A DNA stretch of 64,000 bases from Nitrospirales bacterium (GTDB lineage: Bacteria > Nitrospirota > Nitrospiria > Nitrospirales > UBA8639). Positions 8,684 through 32,370 of the stretch are shown piece by piece. The notes beneath the pieces were generated by a model. It saw only the letters and a list, made by a program, of their open reading frames with translations, did not search any database and had not been told where the DNA came from. The stretch spans positions 62,001 through 126,000 of the forward strand of contig BQIV01000001.1 of NCBI GenBank assembly GCA_021604005.1, written 5' to 3'. Both the position numbers and the translations under genes were made by a program. How positions within the stretch are numbered: the first letter of the stretch is position 1; each line of letters starts with the position of its first letter.

Positions 8684-10831
8684 ATGACCCTATCTGTACC
8701 TGTGCATATTTCTGTCTCATCTACCCCTTCGACAACTATGCTTGACGGGGTGGTGCGAAAGGTCTACCGCAAAGACTCGGGATTTACGGTGATGAGAGTG
8801 GCTGTGTGGGATAAGGATGAACGCGAACAGAGTCCGCTTATCACTGCCGTCGGTCATACACCTCAAGCACCAAGAGTGGGGCATCGCTACACCATGACAG
8901 GGCAGTGGATGACGCATCAGCAGTATGGCAAGCAGTTTCATGTGGAGTCACTCACGAAACCGTTGCCGACGACTGCTCCAGGCATTGAAGTCTATCTGGC
9001 GTCCGGAATATTTCCGGGAGTGGGGCCAGTGTTAGCAAAACGGATTGTCGAGCGATTTGGACAAAAGACACTTGAAGTTATCAAGAGTGAGCCACAACGT
9101 CTCCTGGAAGTATCCGGAGTTGGCCCAGCGGGGCTGACCAAGATGATGCGTGAAGCCCCAGGTCAACTCGGCGTCGCTCATGTCGTGAGTGATCTGTGTC
9201 GTCTTGGGCTGACGCAGCCTCAAGCCATGCGAGCCCTTGAGACTCTTGGTGATGATGCGTATGCGGTTATCCGTGACAATCCTTATCGCGCGGTCGAGGT
9301 CTGGGGGTTGGGATTTCGAAAAGCCGACGCTGTGGCGAAGAGGTTGAAGTTGCCACGAGACAATGGCAGTCGGTTTCACTGTGCCATCGATTCGATACTC
9401 AACGTTCACGCGTCACATGGGATTGTCCGCACACCTGTTGCCGTGTTGCTGACCAGGATGGCGGAACTCTGCGATATCGACATCACGGCACTTGAGCATC
9501 GTGTCGATGAATGGATGGATCGCCAGTGGCTGATCAAGAAGGATGGATACGTCTATGCGCCACTTGTGGGTGAGACCCAGAGGACAATTGAGGACATGTG
9601 TGGTCACCTTGTTCGACGCCAGGCTCGGCGTGAATCAGAGGTGAAGCTGTCTCACTCTTCCCAAAAGCTGACCATGGAACATCGACTGGCGGTAAAGCGG
9701 GCACTCGCCTATCCACTGTCGCTTGTTGTGGGCGGCGTGGGAGTGGGGCTTCCCACATGTCTTCAAGCCATTGTTCATGAAGTCAGAGAGACAGGTTTGA
9801 CGATAGGCGTGGCGAGCCCAACAACGGGCTCAACGATGTTCTTGGATGACGATCAGAAGCTCACAATTCAGTGGGACGATGTTCAAGGCAGTCAAGCCCA
9901 TCCGCAAGCCAAACAGTTGAAAGATCTTGATGTGCTGATGGTGGTGCAGGCGGAACAATTAGATCTGGTCCATGCTGCAAGGTTACTCAACGCTGTCGAT
10001 CGAGACCGAACCCGTGTGGTGATCGTGGGTGATGATGCGCAGGTCCCTTTGTCAGGTCCCGGTTGGGTGTTCCGCGCCAGTCTGCAGGTAGGGATGTTTC
10101 CGGTCACTCGGATCACACAAGTCGAGAGCAGGCAGAAAGATTCAGGACGAGTGAGCCTCATTCGGCAGATTCGTGACGGGAACATGCCGAAGTGGGTCAG
10201 TGGCTTGTTCGGCAAAGACTGTCTCCTGCGTATGGTTGAAAATCTTGAAGATGCGAAGCAAGCACTTTCGGATGTCATGGATCGTTTGTCATTTGCTCCA
10301 AAGGACATTCAAGTAATCGGCGTCGGTCCAAAAGGTCCGTTGGGTACGATGGTTCTCAATCGGTGGTTACAGGATCGCTGGAGTACGGGAGAAACATCAA
10401 CATGGATGGGTTTTCGGGTTGGCGATCGTGTTCGCACTCTCCGTTCGAATCGTGAGAAGGGTGTTTGGGCAACAGAAGAAGGCGACGTGCGGGTCGTGTC
10501 GCCTCAATCGGCCTCCATGCACGTCGTTTTTTCTGGTCGTGAGGTCGTGTATCAGGAATGGGAGTGTGACGAACTGATCTTAGCCTATGCTCTGACGATT
10601 CGCGAGGTCCAGGGCCTGCGAAAACCTTGTGCTGTTGTTGTCCTGCCTCCCCAACCGTCCGATTGGCTCACCCGAGAGCGGTTGCTCACTGCATTATGTG
10701 TCGGCACGCAGTACTTGGTCGTGCTTGGCTCTCCCAGAACGTGCAAGGGAGCGGTGCGTAATACGTTAGAAGAGGAACAAATTCTGTGGTTGATTCAACG
10801 ACAAGAGGTGCAGGATGAGTCTCCTGACTAG
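8684..10831 (+). CDS. RecD2-family protein with degenerate ATPase motifs
   Basis: This 715-residue protein matches full-length RecD2 in layout: an N-terminal OB-like domain (DGVVRKVYRKDSGFTVMRV), helix-hairpin-helix repeats (GIFPGVGPVLAKRIVERFG and LLEVSGVGPAGL), then a helicase fold. The motor looks dead. Where Walker A should read GGPGTGKTT it has GGVGVGLPT (about 348-356), losing the lysine. Walker B, normally VVDEASM, reads VVQAEQL. The motif VHKxQG is IREVQG. Motif III (VGDDAQVPLSGPG) and an arginine-glutamine segment after it (RITQVESRQK) remain. The frame is long and undamaged, so this is not a recent pseudogene. It may act as a DNA-binding or regulatory partner of the intact RecD-like helicase just upstream. 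Its end overlaps the OmpA-like gene by 17 bases. Confidence 0.75.
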   Translation: MTLSVPVHISVSSTPSTTMLDGVVRKVYRKDSGFTVMRVAVWDKDEREQSPLITAVGHTPQAPRVGHRYTMTGQWMTHQQYGKQFHVESLTKPLPTTAPGIEVYLASGIFPGVGPVLAKRIVERFGQKTLEVIKSEPQRLLEVSGVGPAGLTKMMREAPGQLGVAHVVSDLCRLGLTQPQAMRALETLGDDAYAVIRDNPYRAVEVWGLGFRKADAVAKRLKLPRDNGSRFHCAIDSILNVHASHGIVRTPVAVLLTRMAELCDIDITALEHRVDEWMDRQWLIKKDGYVYAPLVGETQRTIEDMCGHLVRRQARRESEVKLSHSSQKLTMEHRLAVKRALAYPLSLVVGGVGVGLPTCLQAIVHEVRETGLTIGVASPTTGSTMFLDDDQKLTIQWDDVQGSQAHPQAKQLKDLDVLMVVQAEQLDLVHAARLLNAVDRDRTRVVIVGDDAQVPLSGPGWVFRASLQVGMFPVTRITQVESRQKDSGRVSLIRQIRDGNMPKWVSGLFGKDCLLRMVENLEDAKQALSDVMDRLSFAPKDIQVIGVGPKGPLGTMVLNRWLQDRWSTGETSTWMGFRVGDRVRTLRSNREKGVWATEEGDVRVVSPQSASMHVVFSGREVVYQEWECDELILAYALTIREVQGLRKPCAVVVLPPQPSDWLTRERLLTALCVGTQYLVVLGSPRTCKGAVRNTLEEEQILWLIQRQEVQDESPD

Positions 10832-11501
10832 CGTCGTCTTGGCCGGGGCTGTCGGGCTGGTCTGTCAACAGCCAGCTGACTTGGATGGACATGTGGTCCG
10901 CATTCCCGGCTCGGTTCAATGGGGTTTGCATGATCCTGCCCAGTGCCACTGGAGAACAGCACCGGACTTCTCCGAAGCGCTCACGAATCACCATGATGCA
11001 ATGACGCAAGGGTCATCTAAGACACAACACGATCAATCTACTGGAGATATTCATGAAGTTTCATCTTGTTTGCCAGAAAACCAAGTCGTACGTGAGACCC
11101 TCTACTTTGACTTTGACTCCGCCTATGCCTTGCCATCGCAAGTGATGAAGTTACTACCTTTGGCTCGAGAAACGGTTCAAACGATGAGCCTTCAAGGGTA
11201 TACAGATCGGCACGGGCCACAGTCGCTTAATGATCGACTCGCCCATGATCGAGCTCGATCGGCATGGGAGGCATGGAAGGATGTAGGTGGATCAAACATC
11301 GACCGGCAGCTCACGGGCCGCGGCTTGTGCTGTTATCGCAACAAAGCCGATGACGCCGTCAACCGACGTGTGGAGCTGACCGCCGTGGTGCGGACGTCGT
11401 GTCCGCGTTCAATCGTCAATACCGTTGAGTCCTCGGCTCGATCGCGTGCAATCGACCCTCCGTGGTCGTCACATGTCGATCGTGGGAGCGGGTCGCCATG
11501 A
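10815..11501 (+). CDS. OmpA-like domain protein
   Basis: A 228-residue protein with an OmpA C-terminal (peptidoglycan-binding) domain at about residues 90-190: ETLYFDFDSAYALPSQ, LQGYTDRHGPQSLNDRLAH and a closing AVNRRVELT. The N-terminus (MSLLTSVVLAGAVGLVCQQ) is a weak, short signal-like segment. The protein would anchor something to peptidoglycan in the periplasm; OmpA-like proteins occur with conjugation machinery, and the tra operon follows. Its start overlaps the RecD2-like gene by 17 bases, and its stop lies nine bases before the conserved part of an omegaRNA, so the guide segment of that RNA overlaps the end of this gene. Confidence 0.65.
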   Translation: MSLLTSVVLAGAVGLVCQQPADLDGHVVRIPGSVQWGLHDPAQCHWRTAPDFSEALTNHHDAMTQGSSKTQHDQSTGDIHEVSSCLPENQVVRETLYFDFDSAYALPSQVMKLLPLARETVQTMSLQGYTDRHGPQSLNDRLAHDRARSAWEAWKDVGGSNIDRQLTGRGLCCYRNKADDAVNRRVELTAVVRTSCPRSIVNTVESSARSRAIDPPWSSHVDRGSGSP

Positions 11502-11510
11502 CGCCTCCTG

Positions 11511-11754
11511 ACTCAACCAGGCTCAGCCACCAGTGAGCTCAAAGGACTTTCACTGACGGGGCTACGTTCGAAGTGAATGGATAGGTACCCGGGGATGCTT
11601 CATCAGTTCCCGGCTCTACGGTCATGGATTAAATAGGACGGTATCGAGGCAACGGCCAGTGTCTATGGCAACTGAAACCACTTACGAACATTGCCGAGGT
11701 GACCATGACTCCCTTCGGGGAGCGGCCGTAAGGCCAATCGAGAAAGGAGAGAAT
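11511..11754 (+). ncRNA. omegaRNA (HEARO-type) without an iscB gene
   Basis: This segment aligns end to end with the RNAs in front of the two iscB genes here: a shared start ACTCAACCAGGCTCAGCCACC minus its last base, then ATAGGTACC, GCTCTACGGTCA, GGCAACGG and TTGCCGAGGTGACC, and the closing GGCC-GTAA-GGCC hairpin. Stems are kept by paired changes: GATG-CTT-CATC here replaces GGTG-CTT-CACC there, GGCC/GGCC replaces GGCT/AGCC, and CAGTGA/TCACTG replaces CACC/GGTG. IscB omegaRNAs carry the guide just 5' of this scaffold; here that would be about 11491-11510, overlapping the stop of the OmpA-like gene. No IscB follows. It may serve the IscBs in trans or act as an mRNA leader. Confidence 0.8.
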
Positions 11755-11898
11755 ATGAATGATCCCACGAGGGGTTTTCCAAGGTGTCCACCGCAGTGGA
11801 GCCATTACATGCCCGGCGAGGACTCTAGTTGCGCCACCTGCCTCGGTGGCTCACCACCATTCGGGTGGCTCGAAGGGGGTGTCGGAAACAGGAGATGA
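11755..11898 (+). CDS. Small cysteine-containing protein at the iscB position
   Basis: A 47-residue frame begins exactly where iscB begins in the two full units: the RNA end, the AAAGGAGAG ribosome binding site and the ATG line up, but the protein (MNDPTRGFPRCPPQWSHYMP, then a CATC motif) has nothing in common with IscB. Three cysteines (CPP and CxxC) could form a small metal-binding site. The ribosome binding site is good; the short length and lack of a known family keep confidence modest. Confidence 0.45.
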   Translation: MNDPTRGFPRCPPQWSHYMPGEDSSCATCLGGSPPFGWLEGGVGNRR

Positions 11899-11970
11899 CT
11901 AGTTGAGGAACGTATTCGGTTTGGAGTTGTCCACAATGATCAATCATGTCACAGAGAATGGAGAACACCC

Positions 11971-12273
11971 ATGACACACTTCATGGATTCCCGGCGGTTC
12001 CTTCGTGGACTGTTGGGGTCATTAATGATCGTGATGTTGGTGGTCAGTGAAGCCTGGGCCGGTGGGGATAGTACGTTTGCCCCGCTGGTGACCTTGGTGC
12101 AGGGGTGGATGCAGGGTTCCTTGGGGACACTGCTCGCGCTCGTCGGGGCACTCTTTGGCTTGGGGGCGGCAATGGCCTCCCGGTGGAGTGGACTTGCGAT
12201 CGGCTTTGGCGTTGCGGCTGGTGCATTTTATATCCCGGACATTATCCCGGTGATCACCACGGGAACAATGTAA
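11971..12273 (+). CDS. traA: TraA-like F-type pilin precursor
   Basis: A 100-residue protein with a long leader (basic MTHFMDSRRFLRG, a hydrophobic stretch, then a likely cut after EAWA) and two hydrophobic segments separated by a short turn, the build of F-pilin: ALVGALFGLGAAMA, then LAIGFGVAAGAFYIPDII. It is the first structural gene of the transfer operon and is followed by traL, E, K and B in the F order. GGAGA precedes the ATG. Pilin is stored in the inner membrane and assembled into the conjugative pilus. Sequence similarity to F TraA is low, so the call rests on size, topology and position. Confidence 0.7.
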   Translation: MTHFMDSRRFLRGLLGSLMIVMLVVSEAWAGGDSTFAPLVTLVQGWMQGSLGTLLALVGALFGLGAAMASRWSGLAIGFGVAAGAFYIPDIIPVITTGTM

Positions 12274-15099: not shown

Positions 15100-15977
15100 A
15101 AGATCACATGATGTCAGCAAGACTCCGCCGACTAAAGAAATGGTGTCTGATCATCACACTTCTTGTCGTCTCGCCGATCGGTGTGACGTGGGCGGATCCA
15201 GCCTTGCTCGATCGGAAAGCCGCGCTTCGATCGGCATTAGAACAATCTCTCCCGGGTTTGGACGTCACGGAGATGAGCGAGGATGAGGTGATTCCGGGAT
15301 GGTGGCAACTGGACGTCAAAACGAGAAGCGGAAACAAGGTTGTCTATGTTGATACGAAAGGGCGCTATATCTTGGTCGGTAGCGTCTTTGATCTTAAGAC
15401 CGGTCATAATCTGACGCGGCAGCGTTTAGTAACACAACGAGCTCGCATCTTCGCCGAGATCGATTGGTCGATGGCGATCATGGCCAATGGCCGACCGCTT
15501 GAACACGGCGCGTCACGTCCTCAACGTCCTCTTCTCTATTTTACGGATCCTGATTGTCCCTACTGTCAGCGCTTTCAGCCTGAGATTCGAAAACTCGTGC
15601 GAGCGGGATATCGAGTCGCGGTGCTGTTGTTTCCGAGCGAGCGCCAGCATCCTGATGCGCCGAGAAAGGCGGCGAGCATTTGGTGTGCGAAGGATCGGAT
15701 GTTGGCCCTCGAATCGGCGTTACGACGGGAGAAGGTCTCTGATCCTGATGTATCGTGTTCGTTACCGCCTCTGGAAGCAATCCGTGACTTGGCCAAACAA
15801 TTTGGCATCACCGGGACACCATCACTCGTCCTCCCAGGTGGCGAAGTGATCAGAGGATTTCAGAGCGCGGAAGCCATTCTGACGTGGTTGGAACGATCAG
15901 CAGATAAACAACGACCAACGAATCTCATGAGCATCAATGACGTCGCGAATGAAGGAGGAATAAACGGTGAGAAGTAA
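15096..15977 (+). CDS. DsbC-type thiol-disulfide protein of the transfer operon
   Basis: A 293-residue exported protein: a basic start, the membrane stretch WCLIITLLVVSPIGV and a likely cut after TWA, then a DsbC-like dimerisation region and a thioredoxin fold with the active site DPDCPYCQRF (CPYC) and the cis-proline segment GITGTPSLVLPGG. Such proteins isomerise disulfides in the cysteine-rich transfer proteins TraU, TraH and TraF encoded downstream. Two further cysteines (WCAKD and VSCSLPP) resemble the second disulfide of DsbC/DsbG. It is coupled to traB and traV by short overlaps. Confidence 0.8.
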   Translation: MKDHMMSARLRRLKKWCLIITLLVVSPIGVTWADPALLDRKAALRSALEQSLPGLDVTEMSEDEVIPGWWQLDVKTRSGNKVVYVDTKGRYILVGSVFDLKTGHNLTRQRLVTQRARIFAEIDWSMAIMANGRPLEHGASRPQRPLLYFTDPDCPYCQRFQPEIRKLVRAGYRVAVLLFPSERQHPDAPRKAASIWCAKDRMLALESALRREKVSDPDVSCSLPPLEAIRDLAKQFGITGTPSLVLPGGEVIRGFQSAEAILTWLERSADKQRPTNLMSINDVANEGGINGEK

Positions 15978-16623
15978 ATCGCGGAAAACAAAATGCCCGG
16001 CGCAGCACCTGCTAGTCGTCGTGGTGTTAGTATCGCTCACCGGATGCTTGTCCTATTCATCCGAGTATGGCTGTAAGGGGTACCCGGATGGGGTCAACTG
16101 TCAGTCCGTCTCCAGTGTCTATGACATGGAGCATGAAAGTGGGACCAATGGCACACAATCGCAAAACAGTGGCTCCTCCAGAACGTCAGGTCAGCCGCAT
16201 CTGTCAAGCGAAGGTCCGATCCTGGGACGGCCCGTTGTGACTCCACCTGAAGTGCTCCGCGTGTGGATCACACCCTGGCGGGACGACGACAATCGTTTGC
16301 ATGAAGGTTCCTATGTGTATGTCCTGGTGAAAGAAGCGGACTTTGCATATGGGGTGTCAGTTGCCTCAGGTGGTCGGAAACGCAATAAGCGTGTGATCAC
16401 GCCATTGAGAGGTATGAGCAATGAACCTGGTCAACTACGCGATGAATTGCCCACGTCGTCCTCATCGCCTCTTCCAGACAACACTCCGCAATCGCCCTCC
16501 GTTCCGAATGGCACCTCGTCGCTCCTTCCCGAATTACAGAAAAAGGCGCGCGAGCAGGGTGGGCTGAGCAACATGGACAAAGCTGTGATTTTTGATCACG
16601 TGTTGAAACAACAAGGACGTTAA
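15967..16623 (+). CDS. traV: TraV-like outer-membrane lipoprotein
   Basis: A 218-residue protein from a GTG start (GGAGG upstream). It has a lipoprotein signal (LLVVVVLVSLTGC) and the TraV cysteine pattern EYGCKGYPDGVNCQSVSSVY. A later conserved part, RVWITPWRDDDNRLHEGSYV, is the typical TraV C-terminal motif. TraV is the VirB7-like lipoprotein of the outer-membrane ring with TraK and TraB. The C-terminal tail (serine/proline-rich, ending DKAVIFDHVLKQQGR) is repeated in decayed form just downstream. Confidence 0.8.
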   Translation: MRSKSRKTKCPAQHLLVVVVLVSLTGCLSYSSEYGCKGYPDGVNCQSVSSVYDMEHESGTNGTQSQNSGSSRTSGQPHLSSEGPILGRPVVTPPEVLRVWITPWRDDDNRLHEGSYVYVLVKEADFAYGVSVASGGRKRNKRVITPLRGMSNEPGQLRDELPTSSSSPLPDNTPQSPSVPNGTSSLLPELQKKAREQGGLSNMDKAVIFDHVLKQQGR

Positions 16624-16640
16624 TGGGTTCGTTGTCAGAA

Positions 16641-16717
16641 GAAGGCATTCGAGCAAGAGGGGGTTCACTGACATGGTCAAAGTGGCCATCTTTAATCACG
16701 TGCTCAAACAGCGTTGA
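16641..16717 (+). pseudogene. Decayed copy of the 3' end of traV
   Basis: The 77 bases resemble the last about 80 bases of traV (16541-16622). One reading frame gives MVKVAIFNHVLKQR and a stop, against MDKAVIFDHVLKQQGR in traV. It lacks the rest of the gene and has shifted frames upstream. It lies directly before the omegaRNA-iscB unit, suggesting recombination between diverged elements or decay of a duplicated end. Confidence 0.7.
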
Positions 16718-16798
16718 GTTCCTGATTTGGTCGGGACTTCATGATTCTTTGGAGTCTTGAATCCAGGCCGTGGAACATGATGATCATGTCATGTCCAA

Positions 16799-17041
16799 AC
16801 TCAACCAGGCTCAGTCACCGCCGACTCGTCTATGGGTTGGTGATGGGACTCCGTTCTGTGCGAATACATAGGTACCGGCGGGTGCTTCACCAGCCTACCG
16901 CTCTACGGTCAGCGATTAATCAGCACGGCTTCGGGGCAACGGGCAGTGTCGCTGACGCCAAACCGCGCAAGAACCTTGCCGAGGTGACCATCACTCCCAT
17001 CATGGGAAGTGGCTGTAAAGCCAACAAAAAAAGGAGGGTGT
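16799..17041 (+). ncRNA. omegaRNA of the first iscB unit (HEARO-type)
   Basis: The conserved scaffold runs from ACTCAACCAGGCTCAGTCACC minus its last base to the iscB ribosome binding site and is about 80% alike to the RNA at 26870. Visible hairpins are GGTG-CTT-CACC, CCCATCATGGG and GGCT-GTAA-AGCC just before iscB. By analogy with known omegaRNAs the guide is the stretch just upstream, about 16779-16798 (ending CATGTCATGTCCAA). It would be processed from the transfer-operon transcript or from a local promoter I cannot place. Confidence 0.85.
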
Positions 17042-18358
17042 ATGCAACGCGTCTTTGTCCTCAGTCACACGAGACTGCCCTTGATGCCGTGCTCACCGGC
17101 AAGGGCACGTCGATTGTTGAAAGCCAAGCGTGCGGGTGTTTTTCGTCGGCACCCATTTGCCATCATCCTTAAGGATCGAACATCGGGAGTAACGCAACCG
17201 ATTTCCTTGCAGCTCGATCCAGGAAGCCGCACGACTGGCATGGCCCTCCTGGGAGAATTCCGCGCTCAAGGCCGGGTTGTGCTGTGGGCCGGTGAGCTGC
17301 ACCATCGTGGCCAACAGGTTCAGCGCAAACTTCTGGCACGACGTACGGTCCGCCGTCACCGTCGATTCCGCAAGACCCGCTATCGGGCGCCGCGGTTTCT
17401 GAATCGCCGTATTTCAGAGGGCTGGCTCCCACCTTCTCTTAAGTCCCGCATCGACAATGTGCTGAATTGGACGCGTAAGATTCGGAATCGGCTTCCCGTC
17501 ACGTCTATTGTGATGGAACTGGTGCGGTTTGATACGCAGAAACTCTTGACCCCAGAGATTGCTGGCGTGGAGTATCAACATGGCGAACTGTTTGGCTACG
17601 AAGTGCGCGAATATCTGTTAGAAAAGTGGAACCGGACCTGTGCTTACTGCCAAAAGACAAACGTGCCGTTGGAAATCGAACATCTCATCCCGCGTAGTCG
17701 TGGTGGTAGCGACCGGGTCGGCAATCTCACCGTCGCCTGCACGAAATGTAATCAACGCAAAGGACAGCAAACCGCATCAGAATTTGCCTATCCGCAGCTC
17801 ATGAAACAAGCTAGGCAACCGTTGAAGGATGCCGCGGCGGTGAATAGTACACGCTGGGCCCTGTATCGCCAACTGCAGTCTATCGGGCTCCCAATATCAC
17901 TGGGGTCAGGCGGACGCACTGAATATAACCGCACTCTCCAAGGTTATCCAAAGGCGCATTGGATTGATGCCGCCTGTATTGGCGTTAACGGTTCTCGAGT
18001 TCATCTTGTTTCACAGACAAAGCCGTTAACGATTACGGCTAGGGGTCGGGGCTCTCGACAGGTCGTTAAAATGAATCGCTTTGGCTTTCCACGAACGAAA
18101 GCTGGTCGTGTAAAACGCTTCCGCGGATTTCAGACGGGTGATCTTGTACAACTTACGCAGCCGAATGGCAAGTATGCGGGACGATGGATTGGAGCACTCT
18201 CGAGTATCCGCTGTACTGGAAAGTTAGACTTTAGGACCACGCGGGGCATCGTCACCGCTCCCGCGTCACGCTTTACGCTGCTTCAACGATCAGAAGGTTA
18301 TACGTATTCTATTGAAGGCTCTCTTGATAGGGTCAAAGACAAAGCTAAGATTGCCTAG
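17042..18358 (+). CDS. iscB: IscB RNA-guided nuclease, first copy
   Basis: A 438-residue IscB from the ATG at 17042 (GGAGG upstream). All parts are present: the N-terminal PLMP domain (LPLMPCSPARARRLLKAKRA), RuvC-I with D59 (LQLDPGSRTTG), an arginine-rich bridge helix (about 96-125), RuvC-II with E159 (IVMELVRFD), an HNH domain with C200, C203, H214 and C233, C236 (EIEHLIPRSRGG), RuvC-III HWIDAACIG (H306, D309) and a C-terminal domain (about 330-430). IscB uses an omegaRNA to cut DNA next to a target-adjacent motif and is the ancestor group of Cas9. It sits between traV and traC, only 14 bases before traC, so it probably shares the tra transcript. Confidence 0.92.
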   Translation: MQRVFVLSHTRLPLMPCSPARARRLLKAKRAGVFRRHPFAIILKDRTSGVTQPISLQLDPGSRTTGMALLGEFRAQGRVVLWAGELHHRGQQVQRKLLARRTVRRHRRFRKTRYRAPRFLNRRISEGWLPPSLKSRIDNVLNWTRKIRNRLPVTSIVMELVRFDTQKLLTPEIAGVEYQHGELFGYEVREYLLEKWNRTCAYCQKTNVPLEIEHLIPRSRGGSDRVGNLTVACTKCNQRKGQQTASEFAYPQLMKQARQPLKDAAAVNSTRWALYRQLQSIGLPISLGSGGRTEYNRTLQGYPKAHWIDAACIGVNGSRVHLVSQTKPLTITARGRGSRQVVKMNRFGFPRTKAGRVKRFRGFQTGDLVQLTQPNGKYAGRWIGALSSIRCTGKLDFRTTRGIVTAPASRFTLLQRSEGYTYSIEGSLDRVKDKAKIA

Positions 18359-26717: not shown

Positions 26718-26730
26718 GAAAGACTTCCAG

Positions 26731-26793
26731 TGCTCTGGACAATATTCACATACTGAAACGGCGATGTCATCGCCTCTATATTTGGTTGAGTCC
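26731..26793 (+). pseudogene. Decayed copy of the 5' end of traG
   Basis: From GTGCTCTGGACA onward this stretch matches the first about 60 bases of traG (28558-28618). Translated, it reads VLWTIFTY, stop, NGDVIASIFG, stop, against MLWTIYSYGNGDVIASIF in traG. GGAAAG lies before it, directly after traH, where traG would be expected. Similarity stops before the omegaRNA. Confidence 0.75.
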
Positions 26794-26869
26794 CCGAATC
26801 GGCTCGGATTTAATGACTCTATGTGGCTATGACTCGGGCCGCGTGAGAATGCCATGAGGTTCTTTTTTG

Positions 26870-27113
26870 ACTCAACCAGACTCAGCCACCATCAATTCAA
26901 CCATGAGTTGGTGATGGGGCTCCGTTCTGCGCGAATACATAGGTACCGGTGGGTGCTTCACCAGCCTGCCGCTCTACGGTCAGCGATTAAACAGCACGGC
27001 GTCGGGACAACGGGCAGTGTCGCTGGCACACAAACCCCGTAAGAACATTGCCGAGGTGACCGTAACTCCCATCATGGGACGTGGCTGTAAAGCCAACAAA
27101 GAAAGGAAGGCAG
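26870..27113 (+). ncRNA. omegaRNA of the second iscB unit (HEARO-type)
   Basis: The scaffold begins ACTCAACCAGACTCAGCCACC minus its last base and ends at the iscB ribosome binding site. It aligns nearly base by base with the RNA at 16799, including GCGAATACATAGGTACCGG, GCTCTACGGTCAGCGATTAA and the GGCT-GTAA-AGCC hairpin. The guide is expected just upstream, about 26850-26869 (ending GAGGTTCTTTTTTG), and differs from the other two guides. Confidence 0.85.
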
Positions 27114-28412
27114 ATGAATCTTGCTTTTGTGCTTAGTTCGACGAAAAAGCCGCTCATGCCGTGTTCACCGGCACGAGCCAGGCGATTGCTTAAAGCGAAA
27201 CGCGCCAGTGTGTTTTGTCGACAACCCTTTACGATCATTCTAAAAGACCGTGCTTCGGGTAAGACGCAATCGATTGCTTGGCAGCTGGACCCAGGAAGCC
27301 GTACGACCGGCATGGCACTTGTCGGCGAGTTTCCGGAGCAAGGACGAATGATGCAGTGGGCTAGTGAACTGCATCATCGCGGGCACCGCATTCGTGAGAA
27401 AATTCTTGCCCGTCGTGTCGCGCGCCGTAAGCGTCGATTCCGCAAGACCCGCTATCGAGCGCCACGATTTCTGAATCGCCGGCGTCCTGAGGGGTGGCTT
27501 CCACCATCCCTTCAATCGCGGGTGGATAATGTGATGAGTTGGACACTTAAAATCCAACGTCGCGTGCCGATTACCTCGATCGCGATGGAACTTGTGCGAT
27601 TTGCTACGCAACATCTCATGAACCCTGAAGTCACGGGCATTGAGTATCAACGAGGGGAACTGTTCGGTTATGAAGTACGGGAGTATCTGTTAGAAAAGTG
27701 GAACCGCATCTGTGCGTACTGTCGAACGACCGATGTGCCACTGGAAATCGAGCATCTGATTCCTCGTAGTCGCGGTGGAAGCAACCGCGTGAGCAATCTC
27801 ACGTTGGCGTGCACGCCTTGCAATCAGCGAAAGGGTAATCAGACGGCTCAGGAGTTTGGCTATCCGCAGCTTATGAAACAAGCCAGTCAACCGTTAAGAG
27901 ATGCGGCGGCTGTGAACAGTACTCGGCTAGCGCTCTATGACAATCTGAAGAAACTCGGGGTTGATCTGTCAGTTTGCTCAGGTGGGCGCACTAAATACAA
28001 CCGCATCCAACAAGGCTACCCCAAAACACATTGGATTGATGCTGCATGTGTCGGTGTTAACGGCATCCAGGTTCATCTTGATCCAAAGACACAGCCGTTG
28101 AACATCACGGCAACGGGTCGCGGCACTCGGCAGGTGGTCAAGACCGATGCCTTTGGATTTCCGCGAACGCAAGCTGGTCGCGTGAAGCGTGTTAGAGGTT
28201 TTCAAACTGGTGATCTCGTGCAACTTACCCAGCCGCATGGAAAATATGCGGGCCGATGGATTGGAGCACTCTCGAGTGTCCGTCGTACGGGGAAATTTGA
28301 TCTTAAGACTACGCGGGGAATAGTCACCGCTCCCGCGTCACGCTTTACGCTGTTTCAACGTGCGGGAGGTTATATCTATGCTGCGCAATTCATTAGGAAC
28401 GGTAAGCGATGA
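27114..28412 (+). CDS. iscB: IscB RNA-guided nuclease, second copy
   Basis: A 432-residue IscB from the ATG at 27114 (GAAAGGAAGG upstream), closely related to the copy at 17042 (most residues identical). PLMP domain (KPLMPCSPARARRLLKAKRA), RuvC-I (WQLDPGSRTTG), bridge helix (ARRKRRFRKTRYRAPRFLNR), RuvC-II (IAMELVRFATQ), HNH (CAYC, EIEHLIPRSRGG, CTPCNQRKG) and RuvC-III (HWIDAACVG) are all intact, so both nickase/cleavage sites look functional. It sits between traH and traG in operon orientation. The divergence between the copies argues against a very recent local duplication. Confidence 0.92.
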   Translation: MNLAFVLSSTKKPLMPCSPARARRLLKAKRASVFCRQPFTIILKDRASGKTQSIAWQLDPGSRTTGMALVGEFPEQGRMMQWASELHHRGHRIREKILARRVARRKRRFRKTRYRAPRFLNRRRPEGWLPPSLQSRVDNVMSWTLKIQRRVPITSIAMELVRFATQHLMNPEVTGIEYQRGELFGYEVREYLLEKWNRICAYCRTTDVPLEIEHLIPRSRGGSNRVSNLTLACTPCNQRKGNQTAQEFGYPQLMKQASQPLRDAAAVNSTRLALYDNLKKLGVDLSVCSGGRTKYNRIQQGYPKTHWIDAACVGVNGIQVHLDPKTQPLNITATGRGTRQVVKTDAFGFPRTQAGRVKRVRGFQTGDLVQLTQPHGKYAGRWIGALSSVRRTGKFDLKTTRGIVTAPASRFTLFQRAGGYIYAAQFIRNGKR

Positions 28413-28557: not shown

Positions 28558-31500
28558 ATGCTCTGGACGATTTATTCTTACGGTAACGGCGATGTCATTG
28601 CTTCCATATTTGAAGGATTGAAACTCGTCTTTGGGAGTGGGGCGTACGAGAGCCTCTTGCAACTGGCACTCTTGCTTCTAGTGCTCGGCCTGCTACTGAC
28701 GACAGTTTTTCGCGGCCGGTTTCTGTGGCCGGTGTTGATGGGCGGGATCGCCATCTTGCTCATCGCAGTGACCCTGACCGTTGATGTGGCGGTGGAAGAG
28801 CAGGTCGATCCATTAATTCCAGATGTGGTGGTCACAGATGTGCCGTTGATCGTGGCGTTTCCCGCTTACGTAACGGGCACGGTGGGGTTTGAATTGTCAG
28901 TCTTGATGGAGACCGTGTTCCCGGTTCCTGATACGTATGTCATGTCCACGTCACCATTCAATCGTTCGTGGTTCGACTTTCAAAAGACTCTGGAAGTCTA
29001 TCTGCCGGATGGTGATCTGCGGCGCAATACGCAATCGTACTTGGTCTATTGTGTCTTTCGGGCGATCGCTTTCGATCAATTGCAGCGTGGCGACTTATTG
29101 CAAGCCACGGATTTATTGTCCGCGATTGCTGTCGCCAATGCTGCCTTGACCGCACCACAGTATGTCAATGGGAATCCCATTGGCGCACTTCAATGTCCCG
29201 AATTTTATAGCACCATCATTCAACCCGGATATACGCTGGCGCACGCCGACTACCAAGAAGCGATGCGACGGCTGCGCGTGGGGTTTCAGGCGGACCCGGA
29301 TTTGCCAGACGCTGAATTGGATCATGTGGATCCGTTGATCACGGCCCTCTTGATTGGCGGCCAGGACTCCCGGTCATTGATCAATACGATGTTGATTCGC
29401 GAAGTCTGGAGAGAGGCGGAGCGACAGGATCGGCAACGGTTTGGCGATGTCGCGGGAACGCTCGTTATGACGCAGCAAGCCTTGTTGCAAGATCTCAAGT
29501 ATCAGGCCTATACGCGCTCCTACATCGCACAAAAACTTGTGCCACTCATGCGGACGGTCGGGGAGGGCATCGTGTATCTCTTGGCGCCCTTTCTGCTCGT
29601 GTTGGCCTTTCAACCAGGGATGGGCCGATGGTTAGGTTTGTATCTCCGCGCGTTTGCCTGGGTGGCACTATGGGGTCCGATCTTTGTCGTGATGAACTTT
29701 TTAATGTTTACCGAAGGAAGCCGTCGACTCACGCCCTTGACGGGCACGATCGACGGGATCGCCATGGTCAACTTCGATAGTGTGCGGGAATTCACGACGC
29801 TGCTGAACACCGTGGCGTCTGATCTGACACTGGCTGTCCCCTTGCTGGCCTGGGGGTTAGTCTGGGGCGGGTCGCACTTGATTGGTGGCTTGATGGGCGG
29901 ACTGTTTCATGCGGCAGGGCAGGGCGACACGGTCGCGACGCAATTCGCTCGCGGACGCGGTAGTGTACGACAGGAGGGCCTGGGGTCGGTCACGCAACAA
30001 GCGACGGTGGGCGATGAGGAATTCGGTGTCATCACGGGACCCGCAGGATTGCGCGTCGATCAGCAAACGGGTGCCTCAGACATTCTGGATCACGAAGGCG
30101 GCGTGGCGCGCGCAGGTGCGAACGGAACGCTCATGTATCGCGGGCCACGCGGGGAATTTGTGGAGAATCAGGAAGGTCGATTGATTCAGGGATTTCGGGT
30201 GCACTCGAACACCGGGAGTGACGGGGTCCGACGGGATGTACGGGAGGAAGTGTTGGCGGGGAGTCAATTGCGCACCACGACGGTGGAAGAGAATCCGGAT
30301 GGCACGCTGCGCACGCTTGAATCGGTCTCGGATATCGCGAGTAGGCGAATGTTGCATGAACTTGAGACGACCAAGTCGGATCGTACAGTCACGAGCGTGG
30401 AACGGTATCAAGACGGGAGTAGTGTAGAGCGGGGGGTGTACCAAGGAAGTGTGGAAGTAAATCAAGGTGGAGAAACAGACATAAGGTACGGAGCGCTAAC
30501 TTCTGTTCAGGCATTTGATTCCCATGGGGAACCTGTTGGCCCGCGTGTCTCGCAATTTGAGGGAAACGACGGGTATCAAACTTATCGGCTCTACGGTGTA
30601 GGCCTTGAGGATTCACAGACGGAGAGCCTCCTTCCAGGTCTTCGGGTAACTAGCGGAGACATTTCCAATAAAACTCGTCGGGAACTACAAGAATCCTATT
30701 CAAGTCTCTCAGAATCGCTCTCACCTCGCGGCGATGGTTTTCGAACCTTTGAACATCGTGGGCTGTTTCCATTGGAGTGGGATCATGGGTTCCGCGCTTT
30801 GGAAGAAGGCATCCTCACGGTCGAAGGGACGGTGCGGGACGGGCATTTTGAACCGACGGCCGCGCGGTTTCGGAGCACGGAAGATCCGGCGGGTGCGTTG
30901 TCAGCCGAGGGACAAGTGGTGTTTCCGTCTGGCGAGCCTGCGCCACTGGGACCCGATGGTATGCCACTTTTCACGGAGGAACATGCGTTCTTTCGCGTGT
31001 CTCGTGCGGATCGAGAGGGATTGGAAACGCAACGAACCGAAGGCCCGCACGGGCTTCCGACTGAGCTGCGTCGTAACGCGGATGGGAGCTATTCCTATAC
31101 CGCTCAGGGTGATCAGACTTTGCAGATTGCGCTTGGTGACGGACTCACCACGTCGGAAACGGTGCGGTTAAGAGAAAGTGGTCGTGCGACCAAAAGTCCC
31201 AGCGGTTTTGAATTCTCACCGAGCATTGCCGAAGCGACATTTACTGGCCCTCCGCTGGCAGGCGAGAGACCGGGTATTTTTTCGGTGCAAGGCTCAATCG
31301 AAGATGGTGTCTTTCATCCGGCGGCAGGGCAAGTCCGTAGCCTCGTCGACTTTCTTGGCGTGGAAGGTGGAGAAGGAGCACCGCTTCGCTCAGTGCAAGA
31401 ACAAGTGGCACCCGAAAGCATCCTATCAGGTCCGCCAGCCTTTAGCCGAAGCCAACGTGGCCATGTTGATGAGTACTTTAATGTTGACCGGTTTGAAGGC

Positions 31501-32370
31501 GCGGCGACGTTTGACGAAATGGTGAAGGGTGGCCCATCGATCTTGAAGGATTTGCCGGTGTATGCGCGGGCACAATATCACGGTGATCAGATCATTGCCG
31601 GGGACTTTCAAGGCGGCATCGAAGGAGAATTTGTCCATGGGGATACCCTGACTTCGTTGCATTTTCAGGACGGCGGTGAACCTGTGTTCCGAGAAACCAA
31701 ATCAGGGACCCGCAGTACGACCTTCAATCGCGAAAGCCATGAAGGGGTGATGATCCTGCCAGGGCAAGAGCCGGGACAGTATTTTCGAGTCGCCGGCACA
31801 TTCGATTTTGATCCCACATCGCATGAAATGGTATCGGCCAGAGCTTCCTCCGTCTCGCAACTGACTGTAGAAAATGACGGTGGTTTGCAAACCGTATTTC
31901 GGAATATGCAGGGCGACACGCTCTTTTCAGAAACGAAACGGGGAGACCTTGAGAGTGGGATCGTATTTCTTCCCGATGAACATGGCAAACTTCAACCCAT
32001 GGCTGGTGTAACGTACTCGCATGGTGGCGACTTAGTATCAGGCGAAGGCAATGCGATAATCTCCACTCAGTTTGCGAATGATCAACAAGAATTCGAAAAA
32101 ATCTTCCGAACGTCCGAAGGGGAACAACTCTATGAGCAAATTCTGAGCGGTGTAGAGCATCAAAAAAAGAACGTCTACGCAGAGCAAAATGTGCGTGACA
32201 TCTCCTACGACTCAGGGTATGCTTTGCTTAGGCTCCTTGGTGAGGATCGCGATCCAAGTGAGCTAACGGAAAACGAACTCACAGCGTTGGAAGCTTTGGC
32301 CATGGCGAAGTTTTCTAAAGACCAGCTCATCGATTTTAAACGATTCCTTGGATCACTGCCGGGGCGTTAA
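28558..32370 (+). CDS. traG: TraG-like mating-pair protein with a long C-terminus
   Basis: A 1270-residue protein. The first about 460 residues match the TraG N-terminal membrane domain: MLWTIYSYGNGDVIASIFEG, several membrane helices (for example LLLLVLGLLLTTVF) and a later cluster IVYLLAPFLLVLAF and WVALWGPIFVVMNFLMF. F TraG is 938 residues and works in pilus assembly, mating-pair stabilisation and entry exclusion. The C-terminal 800 residues here are hydrophilic, glycine-rich and probably beta-rich, with a repeated motif near residues 751, 906 and 1074 (TVEGTVRDGHFEP, SVQGSIEDGVFHP, RVAGTFDFDP). This tail is not like F TraG. Confidence 0.85.
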   Translation: MLWTIYSYGNGDVIASIFEGLKLVFGSGAYESLLQLALLLLVLGLLLTTVFRGRFLWPVLMGGIAILLIAVTLTVDVAVEEQVDPLIPDVVVTDVPLIVAFPAYVTGTVGFELSVLMETVFPVPDTYVMSTSPFNRSWFDFQKTLEVYLPDGDLRRNTQSYLVYCVFRAIAFDQLQRGDLLQATDLLSAIAVANAALTAPQYVNGNPIGALQCPEFYSTIIQPGYTLAHADYQEAMRRLRVGFQADPDLPDAELDHVDPLITALLIGGQDSRSLINTMLIREVWREAERQDRQRFGDVAGTLVMTQQALLQDLKYQAYTRSYIAQKLVPLMRTVGEGIVYLLAPFLLVLAFQPGMGRWLGLYLRAFAWVALWGPIFVVMNFLMFTEGSRRLTPLTGTIDGIAMVNFDSVREFTTLLNTVASDLTLAVPLLAWGLVWGGSHLIGGLMGGLFHAAGQGDTVATQFARGRGSVRQEGLGSVTQQATVGDEEFGVITGPAGLRVDQQTGASDILDHEGGVARAGANGTLMYRGPRGEFVENQEGRLIQGFRVHSNTGSDGVRRDVREEVLAGSQLRTTTVEENPDGTLRTLESVSDIASRRMLHELETTKSDRTVTSVERYQDGSSVERGVYQGSVEVNQGGETDIRYGALTSVQAFDSHGEPVGPRVSQFEGNDGYQTYRLYGVGLEDSQTESLLPGLRVTSGDISNKTRRELQESYSSLSESLSPRGDGFRTFEHRGLFPLEWDHGFRALEEGILTVEGTVRDGHFEPTAARFRSTEDPAGALSAEGQVVFPSGEPAPLGPDGMPLFTEEHAFFRVSRADREGLETQRTEGPHGLPTELRRNADGSYSYTAQGDQTLQIALGDGLTTSETVRLRESGRATKSPSGFEFSPSIAEATFTGPPLAGERPGIFSVQGSIEDGVFHPAAGQVRSLVDFLGVEGGEGAPLRSVQEQVAPESILSGPPAFSRSQRGHVDEYFNVDRFEGAATFDEMVKGGPSILKDLPVYARAQYHGDQIIAGDFQGGIEGEFVHGDTLTSLHFQDGGEPVFRETKSGTRSTTFNRESHEGVMILPGQEPGQYFRVAGTFDFDPTSHEMVSARASSVSQLTVENDGGLQTVFRNMQGDTLFSETKRGDLESGIVFLPDEHGKLQPMAGVTYSHGGDLVSGEGNAIISTQFANDQQEFEKIFRTSEGEQLYEQILSGVEHQKKNVYAEQNVRDISYDSGYALLRLLGEDRDPSELTENELTALEALAMAKFSKDQLIDFKRFLGSLPGR

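Follow-up and report, generated by a model that had tools for sequence, protein, structure and literature searches.

IscB is the ancestor family of Cas9, and the locus described here raises the question of what an omegaRNA with no iscB gene behind it is doing inside a conjugation operon. The DNA analysed (the window) is a 64,000-nucleotide stretch of a Nitrospirales genome of 4.7 Mb, where it lies on a contig of 272 kb. The original prediction, made from the sequence alone, placed an iscB-less omegaRNA at 11511-11754, held that its stems had been preserved by selection after IscB loss, and proposed that it may serve either as a trans-acting guide or as an mRNA leader controlling pilin genes.

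The conjugation operon and its IscB elements

The region is an F-type conjugation operon with the following features:

8684, RecD2-like helicase
10815-11501, + strand, OmpA-like gene, with element sequence in place of its last codons
11971, pilin-like gene
12613, TraE
13861, TraB
15096, DsbC-like
15967-16623, + strand, TraV, complete; diverged site for the guide of element 2 at 16593-16612, then AAGGA
16713-18358, + strand, element 2, omegaRNA and intact iscB (ATG at 17042)
18373, TraC
25350, TraH
26785-28412, + strand, element 3, omegaRNA and intact iscB (ATG at 27114)
28558-32370, + strand, TraG, complete; diverged site for the guide of element 3 at 28593-28612 (AAGGA)

The expectation of two working-looking IscBs nearby fits these genes as far as their sequences can indicate: both are full length and match NF040563, at 427 bits (17042) and 418 bits (27114), and the residues taken as catalytic (D70, E170, H225, H317 and D320 of the first IscB) are invariant in a three-way alignment.

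Related operons were compared in three other genomes, G002, G003 and G046 (Nitrospiraceae UBA8639). All three carry a gene of about 100 residues between traH and traG that is missing from the window at 26718-26784, as seen against the reverse strand of L146 at about 11800-12140. Further afield, IscB turns up in tra operons again: an iscB with a HEARO RNA lies just after traU in the F-type tra operon of a conjugative plasmid of Pseudomonas veronii (NZ_CP142043.1; L232 7751-9374).

Identity of the orphan omegaRNA

The covariance search with the Rfam HEARO/omegaRNA model (RF02033) that had been suggested as a check returned a match at 11465-11709 of 89.9 bits (E 6.7e-17; gathering cut-off 83 bits). 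This is level with the iscB-linked RNAs of elements 2 (16730-16994, 84.6 bits) and 3 (26785-27066, 90.9 bits); all three lie on the + strand above the cut-off, and they are the only good HEARO matches in the genome. The features of the orphan element are:

11404-11423, + strand, predicted guide, the 16-20 nt that precede the left end, within the 3' end of the OmpA-like gene
11424-11872, + strand, whole iscB-less element, 449 bp; left end common to relatives, right border inferred
11424-11431, + strand, 5' arm of P1, GTTGAGTC, the left end of the element
11510-11517, + strand, 3' arm of P1, GACTCAAC
11510-11709, + strand, omegaRNA core (HEARO, RF02033), 89% identical to the iscB-linked omegaRNA of G046
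11724-11735, + strand, hairpin GGCC-GTAA-GGCC, carrying an orphan-specific double change
11755-11898, + strand, 47-codon frame in place of iscB, with ribosome site and start codon kept
11758-11872, + strand, segment replacing iscB, without iscB similarity
11873-11902, + strand, right flank: TAM-like AAGGG and what is left of the OmpA-like C-terminus, up to TAG

No iscB similarity was found downstream of the RNA in 11757-11872, and the frame that follows it is, as stated originally, not iscB: the 47-residue peptide has no Pfam match and no relatives beyond noise in 396 genomes of the phylum, and the last codons of the frame are OmpA remnant. The locus resembles other members of the HEARO family in score, stem order, a P1 stem at the left end and a guide upstream, and differs from them in its diverged P1 loop and in lacking the downstream iscB of an autonomous IscB-omegaRNA locus. 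The claim of an omegaRNA without IscB is therefore upheld. Searches of plasmid and phage DNA with the orphan element gave no matches.

Borders, guide and insertion site

The left end, GTTGAGT, is common to four elements (11424, 16713 in element 2, 26785 in element 3, and 871 in L015 of G046), and the two P1 arms of the orphan pair perfectly. The 5' stem that the Rfam model itself draws from 11465 is a misfit, and this boundary was rejected because the left end shared by related elements is 11424.

The position of the guide follows from a second insertion into the same gene. In G003 (L014, G003:C372), the OmpA-like gene also carries an insertion at its end, there an IscB element from a different clade, whose border is fixed by comparison with G002 (L016, G002:C195), which has the exact empty site and thus the same OmpA-pilin junction without omegaRNA. 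The insertion is base-exact (g2 3065/3066) with no duplicated target, and the left end of the element is position 1 of the HEARO model. The guide is therefore what precedes the left end, and that of the G003 element matches the G002 empty site at 19 of 20 positions. By the same reasoning, the guide of the orphan would be about 11404-11423. This lies, as predicted, within the end of the OmpA-like gene, although not near 11491-11510, a stretch that falls in the variable P1 loop. As judged from these alleles, the OmpA-like gene end is a repeated landing site.

Read backwards from the TAG stop codon at 11900-11902, the frame ends in ..KGVSETGDD*, which lines up in register with the ..EVASPGND* end in G002, so the right border probably lies at about 11872, directly ahead of AAGGGGGTG..., which is what is left of the OmpA C-terminus. 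The original segment thus captured the omegaRNA, but the element is larger, from 11424 to about 11872. The right flank AAGGG fits an NWRG-type TAM, its position depending on this border, and the predicted target of the orphan is TTCAATCGTCAATACC followed by AAGGG. No empty allele matching the guide was found among the loci compared.

Stem conservation

By its omegaRNA, the nearest relative of the orphan is the iscB-linked element of G046, to which it is 56% identical in the P1 loop, 89% in the core and 78% in the 3' tail. Core differences from G046 affect 6 of 117 paired sites versus 16 of 83 unpaired sites (Fisher p = 0.0024). Of the canonical pairs inferred for the ancestor, 63 were scored and every one is kept in the orphan, where 10-16 random substitutions would be expected to break 2.5-5.3; the probability of none broken is 0.001-0.056, a range set by the number and kind of changes assumed, and the test is biased in favour of the orphan because some of the pairs were picked on its own sequence. 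Orphan-specific changes number 10 against 7 specific to G046, and the orphan core does not appear clearly faster-evolving than that of G046. Whole-RNA folding energy was uninformative (z = -0.03). The distribution of substitutions shows constraint to have acted on the lineage of the orphan.

The three stems cited as compensatory hold up unevenly. The change from GGCT/AGCC to GGCC/GGCC is a true double change specific to the orphan (11727/11732), but the other two are mostly not orphan-specific: CAGTGA/TCACTG is largely common to G046 (CAGTGA/TTGCTG, all paired), the orphan adding only two wobble to Watson-Crick changes, and GATG/CATC, which the Rfam model assigns to the P5 hairpin loop, shares GATG with G046 and contains a single orphan-specific C-to-T. 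Since G046 is iscB-linked, much of this covariation predates the loss of iscB. Of the proposed selection on the RNA after IscB loss, constraint on the lineage stands, but this constraint need not have acted after the loss: G046 has the greater part of the covariation, and the conservation of the stems may largely be older than the loss.

Precedents for stand-alone omegaRNAs

That stand-alone omegaRNAs are known, as originally stated, agrees with a statement in PMC9581776, citing its reference 4, that they can function with IscB. The cases mentioned there resemble the orphan as iscB-less omegaRNAs in IscB-encoding genomes, and intact IscBs are encoded in the present genome at 17042 and 27114; relative to those cases, the orphan is distinguished by its place inside a conjugation operon with two IscB elements of the same clade and different guides.

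Two further omegaRNAs without a whole iscB were found on iscB-bearing replicons. Plasmid pAt1 of Allochromatium tepidum (L233 11251-11855) carries an intact, almost identical omegaRNA with a truncated iscB, residues 1-48 being fused to 383-446 (49-382 deleted), about 3.5 kb from a full IscB element; like the orphan, this intact omegaRNA shares its replicon with a full element close by, whereas the orphan retains no iscB residues. The other is a 153-bit HEARO without iscB on a 185 kb viral-collection contig (IMGVR_UViG_3300034684_000299, L229 533-757) that also has an iscB with its own HEARO (L156). A third HEARO lacking iscB, L035, comes from the phylum; no iscB was found within 1.5 kb of it.

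Guides taken from conjugation genes

The clade of the window elements and the G046 element is sampled here by four elements in two genomes. In each of its iscB-bearing elements (3/3), the guide comes from a traV or traG fragment, with a complete, diverged copy of the gene alongside:

16636-16712, + strand, duplicated traV 3'-end fragment, 77 bp, ending in the guide of element 2 (16693-16712)
26731-26784, + strand, traG 5'-end remnant, 54 bp, with stop codon, ending in the guide of element 3 (26765-26784)
L015 702-870 (G046), internal traG fragment, 166 bp; complete traG follows at L015 2652-6443

Complete traV lies just upstream of the traV fragment and complete traG downstream of element 3. 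The 20-nt guides match the complete copies at 16/20 (element 2), 17/20 (element 3) and 17/20 (G046), and these sites are followed by AAGGA, AAGGA and ATGGA, respectively; among random 20-mers of the region, 3 of 60 matched at 16 or more positions, and none of these carried such a motif. The optimum for engineered OgeuIscB is NWRGNA (PMC13180657), and AAGG and ATGG agree with its first four positions. Guide mismatches within the last 16 nt are synonymous.

Better matches occur in other conjugative elements. The G046 guide matches at 20/20 the traG of the window (29608-29627, then TAM-like ATGGT), that of G002 (TTGGA) and that of a second conjugative contig of the G046 assembly (GTGGA), but only at 17/20 its own linked traG (three synonymous mismatches) and the traG of G003. 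The guide of element 2 matches G003 traV at 18/20, followed by AAGGG, and the traV-traC junction of G003 is empty. General divergence between these operons (about 77% identity) predicts roughly the mismatches seen in the own copies, so no directed recoding need be assumed. No convincing near match to a guide was found beside 20 Nitrospirota HEARO elements outside the clade; the best (16/20, beside ATGAAG in G195) is within the random range.

Explanations of the orphan

The orphan omegaRNA is intact, lacks iscB, and is inserted beside two intact iscB genes. The reading we prefer, to which we give about an even chance, is that it is an iscB-less derivative of the IscB family whose guide steers the IscB of its neighbours in trans. 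A member of the family would have lost iscB from the start codon onwards, leaving a non-autonomous element (11424-11872) inserted where the OmpA-like gene of the F-type operon has its last codons. It retains its left end, the P1 stem next to the guide, and an omegaRNA that is paired throughout its stems. The RNA would be transcribed with the operon and load the IscB from 17042 or 27114, and the guide at 11404-11423 would direct cleavage of insert-free OmpA-like alleles, and either the occupied allele would then be copied across or the rival element would be lost. The trans-acting guide first proposed is made plausible by the two intact IscBs nearby; against trans use, the iscB-linked omegaRNA nearest to the orphan is that of G046, and the IscB there has only about 72-75% identity with these two.

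A serious rival, somewhat less probable in our estimate, is a recent remnant that lost iscB not long ago and whose RNA, now functionless, is intact through shortness of time. That the closest relative is iscB-linked and has most of the covariation speaks for such silence, as do the origin of stand-alone copies by simple internal deletion, exemplified by pAt1, and the lack of identifiable content in the 3' part (11758-11872); the absence of broken pairs, a rate of change not clearly above that of G046 and the compensated double change on the orphan branch (11727/11732) argue the other way. It is improbable that the orphan is instead a non-autonomous IS200/IS605-type transposable element, moved in trans by TnpA, with the RNA as part of its end sequence. 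The common left end, right-flank motifs like those of relatives (AAGGG, AAGGA, ATGG, ATGA) and the exact insertion of the G003 element without target duplication would suit such an element, but the genome has only one iscB-less copy, and the inverted repeats of the right end (11758-11872) fold no better than shuffles (z = -0.21). Least probable is the proposed cis-acting leader of the pilin-like gene at 11971. The RNA does lie upstream of that gene in the same orientation, with an iscB-type ribosome site kept before 11755; nevertheless, it belongs to an insertion in the OmpA-like gene and is not conserved at this position in related operons, G003 having an IscB element of another clade there, and no promoter-like site occurs nearby and no terminator-like site within the element. 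The empty junction in G002 led us to reject this role.

Gene-drive reading and significance

The surrounding IscB elements have the appearance of natural gene drives directed against rival conjugation genes. On this reading, an essential target would survive beside the element as a complete, diverged copy unmatched by the guide, while matching alleles in rival conjugative elements would be cut. The simplest account is homing, in which insertion of an IscB element into a conjugation gene is followed by guide-directed cutting of element-free alleles, and selection then restores the gene with a diverged copy. Since its insertion falls in the final codons of the OmpA-like gene, the orphan may have required no rescue copy; its IscB may be supplied by the neighbouring elements. 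It is possible, if doubtful, that the operon as a whole is a natural multi-guide cleave-and-rescue drive, in which the elements target traV, traG and the OmpA-like gene, rescue copies are carried, the orphan supplies a third guide in trans, and rival alleles are cut. A TnpB gene drive of IS605 in plasmids (PMC11870625) is alike in that the guide keeps a record of where the element inserted and plasmids without the insert are cut by the nuclease, and differs in using TnpB rather than IscB and in lacking a rescue copy of the target gene.

Taken alone, the orphan is another stand-alone omegaRNA. Its setting, however, gives clean, testable natural IscB guide-target pairs, with guides, TAM-like flanks, empty sites and mismatched alleles all visible across related conjugative elements. 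If the rescue-copy reading is true, these elements would be the equivalent in nature of engineered cleave-and-rescue gene drives, built on the family from which Cas9 descends.
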